In this document: positions 204-5,331 of the stretch, one piece after another | Numbering within the stretch: position 1 is the first letter of the stretch | How the letters are laid out: each line of letters starts with the position of its first letter | Source: Actinomycetes bacterium | GTDB lineage: Bacteria; Actinomycetota; Acidimicrobiia; Acidimicrobiales; Palsa-688 | Length of the DNA stretch: 5,331 nucleotides | Direction of reading: 5' to 3' | Assembly: GCA_021821705.1 (NCBI GenBank) | Contig: JAKACE010000156.1 | Coordinates: forward strand, 1-5,331 | The notes under the pieces: model-generated | Seen by the model: the letters and a program-made list of their open reading frames with translations, nothing else | Told to the model about the DNA's origin: nothing | The model's database searches: none | Translations under genes and position numbers: made by a program

Positions 204-2210
204 TCAGCCGTCCTGGCTTCGCACGACGGCGACACCCCAAGGGGGCAGGGTCAACGTGCCGGCTGCCCGCACGTTGCTCAACACCTCGGTGCCCGACCAT
301 GTCACAGTCACCTGCCGCTCGGTTGCACCATGGTTGACCAGGAACTCGTACCGGGCCCCATCGGCCCGGCGGACCGTGCGCTCCACCCCGGGCTCGCCAT
401 CACGCCCGCGGGTGGCCTCGCAGCGGTGGTAGAGGCGGCGCATGCCCTCGGCGTCCAGGCGCACGCCGACGTAATAGGCCGTGCCCGCCCCATAAGCCGT
501 CTCCACCACGGCCGGGGTGCCGGTCCAGGGACCGGACACCACCCGGGCCAGCACCTTGCCGTCGCGTTCGACGGCCACGTCTGCCCAGAAATCGCCACTC
601 GTGCGCGTGCCGTCCTCCCACTCGACCTCGACCAGTTCCCCAGCGGGAAGGGGGGCGACGTCCAGCACGTCGCAACCGAGCAGGGGCCGCAGCGGGCCTC
701 CGTAGGGGCCCAGGTGCACCTCGTCGTGTGCGTTCACGATGCCGCTCCAGAAGGAGATGAAAGCGGTCCCGCCCCCCTGCACGTAGGCGACGACGTTGGC
801 GCCCTCCTCGTCGCTCAGCAGGTACAGGCTGGGGGCGACGACGGCGCGGTACCCGCTCAGGTCCTCCGACGGCCTGCAAAAGTCGACAGTCACCTGCCGG
901 TCGTAGAGCGGGCGGGCCATCCAAGCCAGTTGCCCCTGCATGCTCATGTCCTGCGCCGGCTGCGTCCCCTCCTCCAGCGCCCACCAGTTGGGCCAGGAGA
1001 ACAGGATGGCAACCTCCGCTGCCACTGGGGCCGCCCCGAGGGCTTCAAGCCGCGCCACTTCCCCGCCGAGCTGGACCACTTCGGCGAACACGGGCGAGCG
1101 TTCGCCCGAGTGGGGCACCATCGCCGAGTGGAACCTCTCAGCGCCGCTGCGCGAGGCCCTCCACTGGAAGAACAGCAGCCCCCTCGATCCTCTGGCCAGG
1201 GCCTGGTAGGCCAGGGCGCGCATCTGCCCCGGCACCTTGGGCACGTTGTGCCTGCGCCAGTTGACCCTGTACGTGGTCTGTTCCATCACCACCCATGGCA
1301 CCGACTTGTTCAGCGATCGCGCCATGTCGTAGTGCAGCGCCGACCAGAACGCGCTGTGTGGGTCAGCCGGGTCGGGGTAGTTGTCCGTGCTGACGACGTC
1401 GAGGTGCTCCGCCCAGGCGAAGTAGTCGAGGGGCTTGAACAAGCCCATGAAGTTGGTCGTCACCGGAAGGTCCGGGCGCGCCCCGCGCACCAGGCGCTTC
1501 TCCTCCAGGCACTCCTCCAACCACGTGTCGCTGCTGAAACGCTTGAAGTCGAGCAGTTGGGCCGGGTTTGGGTGCGTCGGCGTCATCCGGGGCGGCAGCA
1601 CCTCCTCGAAGGTGCTGTAACGCTGGCTCCAGAAGCTGGTGCCCCAGGCCCGGTTGAGCTCGGCCACGGGCCCGTACCGTCCTGCCAGCCAAGACCGGAA
1701 CCCCTCGGCGTGACGGTCGCAGTAACAGTAGGGGACGTGGCAGGCGTACTCGTTGTGCAGATGGAACATACGCACGGCGCCGTGGTCCCCGAGCTCCCCG
1801 GCCAGCCTGGCGACCACCCGGGCCGCCAGCCGCCGGTAGTTCGGGCTGAGCACGCAGAAATGCTGGCGGCTGCCGTGACTGTAGCGGGCCCCGCGCTCGT
1901 CGACGGGCGCAACGTCGTCGTAGCCGGCAGTGACCCACGGAGGCGGGGAGGCGGTGGGCGTCGACAGGTCCACTCCGATGCCGGCGTCTCCGAGCAGGTC
2001 CATCACCTCACGCAGCCAGCCGAAGTCGAACTCGCCTTCTCGCGGCTCGAGCTGCGCCCACGAGAAAACCCCCACCGTCACCAGGTTGACCCCGGCTCGG
2101 CGCATCAGGCGCACGTCATCGCGCCAGGTCTCCGGCGACCACTGCTCGGGGTTGTAATCCCCGCCGTAGTAGATCGGGCCCACCGGTGCGGGCCTACGCT
2201 CGAGAGTCAT
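204..2210 (-). CDS. GH42 family beta-galactosidase
   Basis: This gene encodes a 668-residue glycoside hydrolase of family 42, which removes terminal beta-D-galactose from galactosides with retention of configuration. The N-terminal TIM barrel (about residues 12-390) carries the family hallmarks GGDYNPEQW at 16-24, the acid/base Glu154 in HNEY, and the nucleophile Glu310 in VVMEQTT. A GH42-type trimerisation domain (about 398-610) and a short beta-rich C-terminal domain (about 615-667) follow, so length and order match full-length members. Cys119, Cys162 and Cys164 fit the family's structural zinc site, with His167 where many relatives have the last Cys. There is no signal peptide, so the enzyme is probably cytoplasmic and acts on imported oligosaccharides. 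The ATG start is supported by AAAGG (2220-2224) nine bases upstream. The gene starts 13 bases after the MalG-type permease gene and is probably last in that operon. Exact substrate (lactose, galactan fragments or other galactosides) cannot be read from the sequence. Confidence 0.95.
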   Translation of the reverse strand: MTLERRPAPVGPIYYGGDYNPEQWSPETWRDDVRLMRRAGVNLVTVGVFSWAQLEPREGEFDFGWLREVMDLLGDAGIGVDLSTPTASPPPWVTAGYDDVAPVDERGARYSHGSRQHFCVLSPNYRRLAARVVARLAGELGDHGAVRMFHLHNEYACHVPYCYCDRHAEGFRSWLAGRYGPVAELNRAWGTSFWSQRYSTFEEVLPPRMTPTHPNPAQLLDFKRFSSDTWLEECLEEKRLVRGARPDLPVTTNFMGLFKPLDYFAWAEHLDVVSTDNYPDPADPHSAFWSALHYDMARSLNKSVPWVVMEQTTYRVNWRRHNVPKVPGQMRALAYQALARGSRGLLFFQWRASRSGAERFHSAMVPHSGERSPVFAEVVQLGGEVARLEALGAAPVAAEVAILFSWPNWWALEEGTQPAQDMSMQGQLAWMARPLYDRQVTVDFCRPSEDLSGYRAVVAPSLYLLSDEEGANVVAYVQGGGTAFISFWSGIVNAHDEVHLGPYGGPLRPLLGCDVLDVAPLPAGELVEVEWEDGTRTSGDFWADVAVERDGKVLARVVSGPWTGTPAVVETAYGAGTAYYVGVRLDAEGMRRLYHRCEATRGRDGEPGVERTVRRADGARYEFLVNHGATERQVTVTWSGTEVLSNVRAAGTLTLPPWGVAVVRSQDG

Positions 2211-2223
2211 CCGGGCCTACCTT

Positions 2224-3132
2224 TCAACCAACGACAGCGCCGAACGTGAGCCCGCGCGCTATGTACTTCTGAAGGAACGGGAACAGCACGAGCATGGGCA
2301 GCACCGAGAGCAGCGAGCCGAGGATCACCTCGGGGTAGAGCGGCTGCCCCGCCCCGGGCAGGTTGAGCTCGCTGGCCCATGCAGACAAGCCCACCGTGAG
2401 GGGGAACTTGGTCGTACTGCCGAGCAGCACGAGCGGAAGGAAGTAGTTGTTCCACGTGCCGATGAAGTCCAGCAGGAACAAGGTGACCATCCCGGGCATC
2501 AGTACCGGCCTGCTGACCCGCCAGAACGTACGCAGCTCGCCCGCCCCGTCAACCCGAGCCGCGTCGAGCAGGGCGTCGGGCACGGCGTCGACGCTGAACA
2601 GCAACATGAAATAGACCCCGAAGGGGTAGACGACCAGTGGCAATATCAGGCCCTCGTAGCTGTTGACCAGGCCCAGGTCGTGCTCGAGCAGGAACAGCGG
2701 CACCACCAGGGCCGTGGCCGGCACCAGGAAGGACGCCACCACCAAACCGGTCACCAGGCGCCTGCCCTTGAACTCGTACTTGGCCAGGGCATAGCCGCAG
2801 AGGGTGGATATGGCCGTAGCCGCCAGGGCGGTCACCAGGGCATAGACCGCCGAGTTGACCAGCCAGTACTTGAAGTAGCCGCCGTCAACGCTGAACAGCA
2901 GGCTGAAGTTCGAGGCCCACGACAGGTGTGCAGGCGGCAGGAACGTCGAAGTATTGAACAATTGGCCCGTGTTCTTGGATGAGGCGACCACCAGCCAGTA
3001 GATCGGCGCCAGGACGTACGCGGCCACCACGACGGCCAGCGCCGTGCCAGCGGTCGCCTTGGCCCGGCTGGCCAGGCGGTAGCGGCGGGGCCCTGGGACG
3101 GTAGTGGGGACGGTCGCCGGGACAGCTGTCAT
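2224..3132 (-). CDS. Carbohydrate ABC transporter permease, MalG type
   Basis: This is a 302-residue inner-membrane subunit of a CUT1-family sugar importer. After a Pro/Thr-rich cytoplasmic N-terminus, about six hydrophobic segments are visible (roughly 31-52, 90-115, 127-147, 157-180, 213-236 and 268-290). The cytoplasmic coupling loop that docks onto the ATPase is at about 187-213, containing DAARVDGA and then RPVLMPG; the usual Glu of the EAA motif is Asp190, a conservative change. Length and C-terminal end are normal for MalG-type permeases. The ATG overlaps the stop codon of the preceding permease (ATGA), and a full AGGAGG lies five bases upstream, so translation is probably coupled. It should pair with a MalF-type partner, a solute-binding protein and an ATPase. 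Here the MalF partner is truncated and the other two are absent, so this intact protein probably has no working complex from this locus. The sugar is inferred to be a galactoside from the adjacent beta-galactosidase. Confidence 0.92.
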   Translation of the reverse strand: MTAVPATVPTTVPGPRRYRLASRAKATAGTALAVVVAAYVLAPIYWLVVASSKNTGQLFNTSTFLPPAHLSWASNFSLLFSVDGGYFKYWLVNSAVYALVTALAATAISTLCGYALAKYEFKGRRLVTGLVVASFLVPATALVVPLFLLEHDLGLVNSYEGLILPLVVYPFGVYFMLLFSVDAVPDALLDAARVDGAGELRTFWRVSRPVLMPGMVTLFLLDFIGTWNNYFLPLVLLGSTTKFPLTVGLSAWASELNLPGAGQPLYPEVILGSLLSVLPMLVLFPFLQKYIARGLTFGAVVG

Positions 3133-3605
3133 CGTGCCCTCCTCGCCACGTGCCCCCCGCTCAGGCCACGGCGGCGCACGATCCCGTAAAAGGCGCCCGT
3201 CGCCACCACTGTGATCAGCGCCAGGACCACCGACTGGGCAGCCGCCAGCTGCTCGTTGCCGAATGAGAAGGCCGTGTTGTATATGAGCTCGTTCGGTGAA
3301 TAGCTGCTGCCGATGCTGGCAATGTCGTTGAGGATCATCGGCTCGTTGAACAGTTGCAGGGAGCCGATGATGGACAGCACCACGATGAAAAGCACCGTGC
3401 GTCTCACCATGGGCAGCTTGACCCGCAATGCGACAGACAGCTCGCTGGCACCGTCCACCTTGGCCGCCTCGATCACCTCACGGGGCACACTCGTAAGGCT
3501 CGTAAGCAGGATGGTCATGTTGTAGCCCGTCCATTCCCAAGTGACGATGAGCATCATCGCATAGAGAACGAAACGGTACGACAACGGCGTGAGCGGCCCC
3601 GAGGT
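3129..3605 (-). pseudogene. C-terminal half of a MalF-type ABC sugar permease
   Basis: About 155 residues of a CUT1-family permease remain, with an intact C-terminus and stop. The coupling motif is clear (EAAKVDGA followed by KLP, about 3411-3470). Three membrane segments can be seen: one in the stretch ending WEWTGYNM, one around LFIVVLSIIGSLQLF, and a last one around VVLALITVVATGAF. Full MalF-type subunits are around 300 residues with at least six segments, so roughly the first half is missing. The minus-strand frame stays open to 3998, but those extra residues (Arg/Ser/Pro-rich, no membrane segments) are the antisense reading of the lacI fragment and do not look like permease. The stop overlaps the MalG-type start by the ATGA arrangement, typical of an intact malF-malG pair, so the break is confined to the 5' side. 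The exact end is uncertain by about 15 bases. A functional importer is very unlikely. Confidence 0.85.
3138..3143 (-). promoter_or_regulatory. Strong ribosome binding site of the MalG-type permease
   Basis: The minus strand reads AGGAGG, five bases before the ATG at 3132. It sits inside the last codons of the upstream MalF-type reading frame. It fixes the permease start and would allow initiation there even though the upstream gene is broken. Confidence 0.7.
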
Positions 3606-3620
3606 GATGCCCAGCAGCGA
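3590..3620. other. Junction between two 5'-truncated, head-to-head genes
   Basis: Permease-like protein reads leftward from about 3596-3608. LacI-like protein reads rightward from about 3616-3619. Both lose family resemblance within these few bases and each lacks its N-terminal coding part. No insertion sequence, inverted terminal repeat or target duplication is visible at the point. The LacI frame meets a TAG stop at 3562-3564, inside the permease sequence, so the two are not one continuous gene. A deletion joint or a chimeric assembly joint fits; the exact base cannot be set without the parental sequence. Confidence 0.75.
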
Positions 3621-3945
3621 GGGCACCCTGACGGGCGCCCGCAAGTTGCTGGCCCGTTGCCCTGACATCGACGGCCTGTTCGTGGGCTCTGACCTGATGG
3701 CCCTGCAGGCACTGTCCGTGCTGCGTGAGGCCGGCCGCCGGGTGCCAGGCGACGTGGCCGTTGTCGGCTTCGACGATTCGGCCGCTGCGACCATGGCCGA
3801 CCCGCCCCTCACGACTGTCCACCAACCCTTCGAGCGCGCCGCTGCCGAAGCTGTCAGGGTGCTGAACGAGCTCATCTCGGGTGCCGCCACCGGGCCGCAG
3901 CACGTTGTGCTCCCCACCAAGCTGGTCCGGCGCCGGTCGGCCTGA
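3606..3945 (+). pseudogene. C-terminal fragment of a LacI/GalR-family transcription regulator
   Basis: About 110 residues match the C-terminal part of the LacI/GalR sugar-binding core. Hallmarks in order are CPDIDGLFVGSDLMALQAL, GRRVPGDVAVVGFDD (ending at about 3777), DPPLTTVHQP (3799-3828), and a terminal VVLPTKLVRRRSA before the TGA at 3943-3945. Whole family members are about 330-350 residues, with an N-terminal helix-turn-helix and hinge helix; that part and most of the effector domain are missing, so the product could not bind an operator. Codons GTG 3589 or ATG 3607 are in frame, but neither has a convincing ribosome binding site. The fragment lies divergently next to a sugar transport operon, the usual place for that operon's repressor. 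I infer it once controlled the beta-galactosidase genes. Confidence 0.88.
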
Positions 3946-3962
3946 CTCAGGACGGGGTGGCG

Positions 3963-3976
3963 CGGCCGGCCGGCCG
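3963..3976. repeat. 14-base G+C palindrome between lacI remnant and CDF gene
   Basis: CGGCCGGCCGGCCG is a perfect palindrome 17 bases past the stop of the LacI fragment. It could fold into a 5-bp stem with a 4-base loop and act as a weak terminator of the old lacI gene. It may equally be a simple GGCC repeat in G+C-rich DNA. No T-tract follows. Confidence 0.3.
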
Positions 3977-4049
3977 TGCAGGCCCAGACCGGCCTCACCT
4001 TCGCCGATGACCCGGCCCGGGCCCCTGCCAGGCGGTATTACTGGAGCCG

Positions 4050-5003
4050 ATGCCTGACAGAGATCCCCTCCCTCAGGGCCCTGCAGCGCCGGCCCGTCAC
4101 GGCCCGGCCGATGTCGGGGCCCCCGGAGCGGACGTCCGTTACCTCGTCGCCGCCCTCGGCCTCATCTCCTCCTTCATGGTGGGCGAGGTGGTGGCCGCCG
4201 TAGCGTCGGGGTCACTGGCCCTTCTCGCCGACGCCGGCCACATGATCACCGATGTCGGCGCCCTCGGTGCCAGTATCTGGGCGGCACGGCTGGCGGCGAG
4301 GCCGGCTGGAGGCCGATGGACCTACGGGCTGAAACGAGCCGAGATCCTCTCCGCTGCCGGCAACGGCGTCATGCTGGTGATGATTGCCGCCGTCATCGTC
4401 GTCGAGGCCGTAAGCCGTCTGGTGAGGCCTCCGAGCGTGGCCGGCTCCGTGGTGCTGGCCGTGGCGCTGGCCGGCGCCGCTGTCAACGTGGCGGCAACGG
4501 CTGTGCTGGCGCGCGCCAACCGGACCAGCCTCAACGTGAGGGGGGCGTTCGCCCACATCGTGACCGACCTTTACGCCTTCGGTGGAACGGCCGTTGCCGG
4601 TCTGGTCATCGTGTCGACCGGCTGGTCGAGGGCCGACTCGGTGGCGTCCTTGCTGGTGGCCGCCCTCATGGCCAGGACGGCCCGGGGCCTGCTGCGTGAC
4701 GCCGGCCGCATACTGCTGCAAGGAGCGCCCGAGCAGGTCTCGCTGCCCGAAGTGCGCGCCCACATCACCGGGCTGGAGCACGTGCTCGGCGTGCACGACC
4801 TGCACGCATGGACCGTTACCTCCAACCTGCCCACCCTCTCGGCCCACGTGGTCGTGGAGGACCACTGCTTCGCCTCGGGCCACGCGCCCCAGATACTCGA
4901 CTCGCTGCAGGCATGCCTGGGCGAGCACTTCGACGTGGAGCATTCGACCTTCCAGCTGGAGCCGGCCAGCCACGCCGCCCACGAGCAGGGCCGGCACCCT
5001 TGA
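4050..5003 (+). CDS. Cation diffusion facilitator (CDF) metal efflux transporter, CzcD/ZitB type
   Basis: This 317-residue membrane protein belongs to the CDF family, which exports Zn2+ (often also Cd2+ or Co2+) from the cytoplasm in exchange for protons. A Pro/Ala-rich N-terminal tail of about 28 residues precedes six membrane segments (about 31-52, 55-82, 98-123, 129-155, 166-190 and 195-215). The metal site is complete: His64 and Asp68 (HMITD) in segment 2, and His169 and Asp173 (HIVTD) in segment 5, the His/Asp combination of zinc-type members. The cytoplasmic C-terminal domain (about 220-317) contains GVHDLHAWTVTS and LSAHV, which are typical. There is no His-rich loop between segments 4 and 5; only the last dozen residues have scattered His. 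ATG 4050 is the only usable start, because the frame is closed by TGA at 4008-4010. GGAG ends just three bases before it, an unusually short spacing. No metal-responsive regulator is adjacent. The family is certain; the exact metal is inferred. Confidence 0.95.
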   Translation: MPDRDPLPQGPAAPARHGPADVGAPGADVRYLVAALGLISSFMVGEVVAAVASGSLALLADAGHMITDVGALGASIWAARLAARPAGGRWTYGLKRAEILSAAGNGVMLVMIAAVIVVEAVSRLVRPPSVAGSVVLAVALAGAAVNVAATAVLARANRTSLNVRGAFAHIVTDLYAFGGTAVAGLVIVSTGWSRADSVASLLVAALMARTARGLLRDAGRILLQGAPEQVSLPEVRAHITGLEHVLGVHDLHAWTVTSNLPTLSAHVVVEDHCFASGHAPQILDSLQACLGEHFDVEHSTFQLEPASHAAHEQGRHP

Positions 5004-5195: not shown

Positions 5196-5331
5196 TTGCC
5201 CCGTTTCCGCCCTACCGCCGCAGTCGTCCTCCTCGCCGGCCTCACGCTCAGCGCGTGCGGAGGGAGCCCGAGCGCGGCCGGCACGACCTCGGTGCCGGCC
5301 AATGGTGCGACCACGACCTCGGCACCGGCGG
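5196..5331 (+). CDS. Secreted lipoprotein, N-terminal part (runs off window)
   Basis: This frame begins at TTG 5196 and is open to the window edge, giving 45 codons. AAAGGA (5184-5189) lies six bases upstream, well placed to support the non-ATG start. The product begins MPRFRPTAAVVLLAGLTLSA: a basic start with Arg3 and Arg5, a hydrophobic core, and a lipobox Leu18-Ser19-Ala20-Cys21. This is a signal peptidase II (Lsp) signal with lipidation at Cys21, so the mature protein should be anchored to the outer face of the membrane. After the Cys comes a flexible Gly/Ser/Thr/Pro/Ala linker with a 10-residue near-repeat (TTSVPA then TTSAPA). The functional domain lies beyond the window, so no function can be given. 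It has its own possible promoter and is separated from the CDF gene by 192 bases, so co-transcription with it is uncertain. Confidence 0.8.
   Translation, partial: MPRFRPTAAVVLLAGLTLSACGGSPSAAGTTSVPANGATTTSAPA
5283..5330 (+). repeat. Two copies of a 30-base-period repeat in the lipoprotein linker
   Basis: ACGACCTCGG occurs at 5283 and again at 5313, each followed by a codon pair ending in CCGGC. The period of 30 bases keeps the reading frame and encodes TTS(V/A)PA twice. The second copy reaches the window edge, so more copies may follow. Confidence 0.5.

Follow-up and report, generated by a model that had tools for sequence, protein, structure and literature searches.

In the window, two 3′ gene fragments, one of a MalF-type permease and one of a LacI-family regulator, are joined head to head within eight bases. 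We think it likely that one deletion of about 3.0 kb produced this arrangement by removing the malF 5′ part, the entire gene for the solute-binding protein, the promoter/operator region between the divergent genes and the 5′ 70% of lacI, so that the two stumps were left joined at 3630–3637. This reading draws on the truncations themselves, on the intact layout found in G010, on an operator-like palindrome that is missing from the window, and on versions of the locus in G001 and G002 that are broken or reduced in other ways. By comparison of sequences, the event looks like a real, ordinary loss-of-function deletion, to which its apparent repetition within the genus adds interest. That the sister species are broken at other end points is a new point beyond the window sequence.

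Source and gene content of the window

The window is the entire 5,331-bp contig C133 of the MAG G000 (2.70 Mb, 522 contigs, estimated 61% complete). G001 and G002 are sister species in the same genus, and G010 and G022 belong to the same family. The corresponding loci are L044 in G001, L045 in G002 and, in G010, L170, which is contig C265 (4,401 bases). The features of the window are as follows.

204–2210, minus strand: GH42 β-galactosidase, 668 aa, intact (Pfam PF02449, PF08532 and PF08533)
2224–3132, minus strand: MalG-type permease, 302 aa, intact (PF00528 at 110–295; 69% to the intact G022 operon)
3129–3629, minus strand: MalF-type permease, 3′ part only, about codons 122–287 of P0001 (Pfam and homology to P0001)
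3630–3637, no strand: malF/lacI junction, between the last clear malF and the first clear lacI homology
3637–3945, plus strand: LacI-family regulator, 3′ part only, without HTH (PF13377 at profile positions 72–166; 80% to G002 lacI)
4050–5003, plus strand: cation diffusion facilitator (CDF)

All three GH42 domains of the β-galactosidase lie in a single open frame, with the motifs HNEY at residue 152 and MEQ at residue 309, which we take to be catalytic. The frame is also open in G001 (91%) and G002 (71%). The closest named GH42 relatives returned were bog and fen MAGs titled Acidimicrobiaceae at 63–65% identity, in a search from which very near records were possibly left out. At the right end, 5196–5331 probably holds the start of a lipoprotein gene, with a signal ending in LSACGG, which runs past the contig end. 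Rfam gave no match in the window at gathering thresholds. Between 2150 and 4100 a scan for sigma-70-type promoters, a poor guide in actinobacteria, found none (shuffle mean 0.1), and there was one terminator-like site (shuffle mean 0.9).

Two genes cut at one join

The intact counterpart of the malF fragment is P0001, a MalF protein of 287 aa from a close relative, encoded on a 2,013-base public contig and covering the full permease domain (PF00528, profile 2–181). About the last 166 codons are kept in the window. This frame corresponds to residues 121–287 of P0001 at 94–96% identity (94% across the 172 residues aligned by BLASTP), and its homology to malF is far above chance (E 2.7e-74). It matches PF00528 (BPD_transp_1) only at profile positions 54–180 of 184 so that, judged on Pfam domain extent, it is short of the complete domain and N-terminal membrane helices of a MalF-type permease. 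The initial annotation had described a MalF without its N-terminal half; the truncation stands, with about 42% missing rather than half.

The regulator is cut more deeply. Its last 102 codons are clear and up to 109 can be aligned, with window positions 3616–3942 matching residues 255–363 of the G002 orthologue at 80% identity (E 1.2e-49). Above the cut-off the frame matches only Peripla_BP_3 (PF13377, positions 72–166 of 167), a PF13407 match falling below it, and Pfam found no HTH domain in the frame. The N-terminal HTH (PF00356) and sugar-binding domain of the LacI family are both present in the G002 and G010 orthologues; the G002 protein is intact at 363 aa, with its HTH at residues 35–79. 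The absence of the N-terminal region had thus been recognised correctly, and its extent is corrected here from two thirds to about 70%.

The last codon that is clearly malF is 3627–3629 (Arg) and the first that is clearly lacI begins at 3637 (Ala of ARKLL), which places the join within the eight bases 3630–3637, tighter than the roughly 30 bases within which both cuts had been put. Two genes are therefore each truncated at a single shared join and have intact homologues elsewhere, as in a pseudogene made by deletion.

The leftward frame stays open across the join into the lacI antisense strand, forming a 289-aa ORF (3129–3998). Gene calling at this locus accordingly yields a "permease" of 178–289 aa whose N-terminal part is antisense repressor, which should serve as a warning. 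We consider it very improbable that this chimeric frame encodes a novel protein with a function of its own, such as a half-permease that pairs with MalG. Its openness and the good conservation of the malF remnant would suit such a protein, but the conservation is accounted for by the time before the deletion, the permease domain is without its first 53 profile positions, and no binding protein was found. Moreover, among the ten clusters returned by a search with the joining region, one alone (P0002) covers it fully, the other nine aligning over 84% (the malF part).

The intact layout in relatives and the size of the loss

The layout expected before a deletion is seen in L170, from another species of the same family. 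Here malF and, upstream of it, the binding-protein gene lie on one strand, the orthologous lacI occupies the other, and an operator-like palindrome separates the two sides; malF reaches past the contig end. A divergent layout and a loss of 2–3 kb had both been predicted from the window, and the comparison bears them out. By alignment, the end points in the window fall at about positions 156 and 3188 of L170, which makes some 3.0 kb missing, comprising about 121 malF codons and about 255 lacI codons together with the binding-protein gene and the control region, with the placement of the end points resting on relatives 63–80% identical and one protein.

An unbroken copy of the locus at high DNA identity was not found in the genomes searched, and within the family the divergent layout is known from G010 alone. 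On G022 contig C193 the β-galactosidase, malG, malF and binding-protein genes stand together, and the lacI upstream points in the same direction and is not orthologous to that of the window. GH42 loci at ≥60% identity occur in G000, G001, G002, twice in G022 and at L049; the complete set of malG, malF and binding protein is present at one of these six (C193). At E≤1e-4, neither malG nor malF was matched in the sequence pieces examined from the other G022 locus (L046) and from L049. When lacI was searched across the family, four of 32 genomes had a match at E≤1e-60 (G002, G004, G010 and G018). Close malF and binding-protein matches adjoin lacI in G010 alone; neither is present at the G002 locus, and near lacI in G004 and G018 the only malF/malG matches are distant (27–28%). 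In the phylum, 9 of 396 genomes carry lacI orthologues at E≤1e-80 (45–50% identity), and at two of the four loci examined among these nine, β-galactosidase, binding protein, malF, malG and lacI occur together. A literature search found no title resembling a report of this locus.

The relatives also point to a substrate. Compared with solved structures, the binding protein of the G022 operon matched PDB 6h0h best (E 4.8e-32), and 2z8d, a galacto-N-biose binder, came fifth (E 8.4e-19). Sugar and galacto-N-biose/lacto-N-biose binding proteins are thus its relatives, whereas such a protein is absent at the window locus. The G010 binding protein is 64% identical to that of G022; Pfam at E≤5 named neither, giving no match to the former and a single irrelevant one, below threshold, to the latter. 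Together with the GH42 enzyme, the structure matches suggest that the sugar linked to the importer is probably a galactoside.

An operator-like palindrome missing from the window

A perfect 16-base palindrome, TTGGGAGCGCTCCCAA (L045:11434–11449), lies in G002 between a malG-like stub and the intact lacI, near the start of the β-galactosidase gene. Its counterpart in G010, TTGGGAGCGCTCCCAG, lies between the binding-protein gene and lacI and has one mismatch to it, outside the 14-base core. In both genomes this core equals TGGGAGCGCTCCCA, the CebR site reported in Streptomyces (PMC4898821), and may be a binding site of these LacI proteins. The window, like L044, contains no match to TTGGGAGCGCTCCCAA at ≤3 mismatches, and its regulator fragment is accordingly not accompanied by a TGGGAGCGCTCCCA operator as in a CebR-type regulon.

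Across 15 sequences scanned, matches with ≤3 mismatches occurred in three (L045, L170 and L174). G004 and G018, with lacI at 66–68% to that of G002, have none within the 19 kb examined; the palindrome is not universal beside lacI orthologues.

The family loci resemble a sugar ABC importer operon under a LacI/CebR-type repressor in the G010 arrangement of binding protein, malF and divergent lacI, in the G022 set of β-galactosidase, malG, malF and binding protein, and in the TGGGAGCGCTCCCA core of the G002 and G010 palindromes. From this pattern the window lacks binding protein, palindrome and the 5′ parts of lacI and malF. Two further differences are that the G022 operon has a lacI next to it that is no orthologue of the window gene, and that the sugar here, to judge from the GH42 gene, is probably a galactoside and not cellobiose.

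Real deletion or assembly artefact

The join could also be an assembly or library chimera, the true genome having an intact galactoside operon. At 5,331 bp the window spans its contig from end to end, in a MAG of 522 contigs that is 61% complete, circumstances in which such an error could arise. Against this, a separate 711-bp public contig encodes the same join in P0002 (178 aa; a cluster of five member sequences), the clearest support from outside the MAG, though indirect. P0002 begins in lacI antisense and, compared as protein, is identical to the window frame over 117 residues spanning the join. Past the identical part, the following 50 aligned residues include 7 differences, and the final 11 residues do not align; the contig is either a recombinant or another strain, or a mixed or chimeric contig, and it may come from the same sample as the window. 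The C-terminal end of P0002 also suggests that mixed sequence can occur on short contigs of this group.

If the operon were intact, its missing pieces might lie on other contigs, and the initial annotation had proposed looking for them there. In G000 (61% complete) no orthologue was found of the missing malF part (next match by E-value 27%), of the binding protein (best 34% over residues 28–203 of 463) or of the missing lacI part (best other lacI 37%), an absence that weighs little at this completeness. In G001, which is 93% complete, the binding protein likewise has no orthologue (best match 27%, partial). Moreover, a 117-kb contig of G001 shares the gene order of the window, and there the corresponding genes are broken at other positions. 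As a control on assembly quality, confined to one stretch and to differences >1 kb, we aligned 12 kb of G000 contig C341 with G001 contig C113. The two align in four pieces at 88–92%, and the single difference of that size is a whole gene present in G001 only, with clean borders and whole flanking genes. On these comparisons, an assembly error is an unlikely source of the join.

The gene found in G001 only encodes 457 aa (L180:2108–3481), is missing from the corresponding place in G000 contig C341, and presumably resembles cobyrinate a,c-diamide synthase.

The same module broken or reduced at other end points in sister species

In G001 the 117-kb contig has the gene order of the window, including the adjoining CDF gene, and malG, malF and lacI are all damaged. 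Its malG (L044:6785–7306) encodes 173 aa, is missing 129 codons in frame near the start and is otherwise open; the permease-domain match begins at profile position 26. From malF, codons ~82–144 are missing and there is a frameshift, and a join connects malF codon ~23 to lacI codon ~318. The G002 locus runs from the β-galactosidase gene through a malG-like stub (resembling the last 21–27 codons of malG) and TTGGGAGCGCTCCCAA to an intact divergent lacI, with neither malF nor a binding-protein gene. The stub scores 54 against a shuffle mean of 32, a score reached by 5 of 2,000 shuffles, and is likely a malG remnant. Elsewhere in G002 (C42) there is a more distant importer (malF 44%, binding protein 36%).

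The end points differ among the three genomes because each keeps sequence that another lacks, and the GH42 gene is open in all three genus genomes examined. The window locus resembles sugar-uptake operons pseudogenised by deletion in the truncation at one clean join, the intact relatives and the signs of earlier constraint; it is unlike them in that one module is damaged or reduced with different end points in three congeners and the β-galactosidase stays open. We regard this as ordinary deletion-driven gene loss that has apparently recurred within one genus. More specifically, and tentatively, since we rate it at somewhat less than an even chance, the importer module may have been shed repeatedly by separate deletions with differing end points in all three species while the intracellular β-galactosidase was kept. 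If so, the repetition would represent parallel loss favoured by selection, or a fragile locus, and in G002 it would have brought the repressor operator close to the β-galactosidase gene. The G002 losses may thus have put this gene directly under LacI control.

Timing and number of events

We estimated dN and dS between G000 and G001 by NG86, excluding codons in gaps or stops. For malF (143 codons) dN/dS was 0.016/0.589 = 0.027. The corresponding values were 0.045/0.331 for malG (173 codons), 0.031/0.520 for the lacI 3′ part (46 codons), 0.048/0.364 for the β-galactosidase gene (668 codons) and 0.085/0.511 for the CDF gene (317 codons). The low malF value suggests that, until recently, strong constraint probably acted on malF in both lineages, and therefore that the losses in the window species and in G001 are probably recent and separate rather than one shared old loss. 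It also fits the view, taken from the clean state of the fragments in the window, that the loss was recent.

One deletion event is the simplest reading of the window, and several nested events would look alike. A stepwise course would start from a smaller deletion shared with G001, for example of the binding protein and the 5′ end of the regulator gene, which was then extended in each lineage. Such a step is geometrically possible, as malF codons 1–22, the binding protein and lacI codons 1–254 are absent from both G000 and G001. We nevertheless consider it improbable, as a dN/dS of 0.027 in the malF remnant indicates that constraint stayed strong through most of the period after the split, which is unexpected if the ancestral importer was already dead.

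Expected consequences of the proposed deletion

Under a single recent deletion, separate from the G001 and G002 losses, the window importer would be dead, as no binding protein was found and MalF is cut to its 3′ part. The regulator would be dead as well, since a fragment without the HTH should not bind DNA. The β-galactosidase and malG genes, left without their native promoter, would be either unexpressed or transcribed from a different one. The window then offers a clear example, probably a recent one, of a sugar-uptake operon stripped of its importer and control region that can be compared with an intact relative, and three related species in different states raise the question of why an intracellular β-galactosidase is kept without its own importer. 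In G002, an MFS-type transporter gene (PF07690, 437 aa; L045:12647–13960) lies downstream of the intact lacI, and its product is a possible other route for a sugar.
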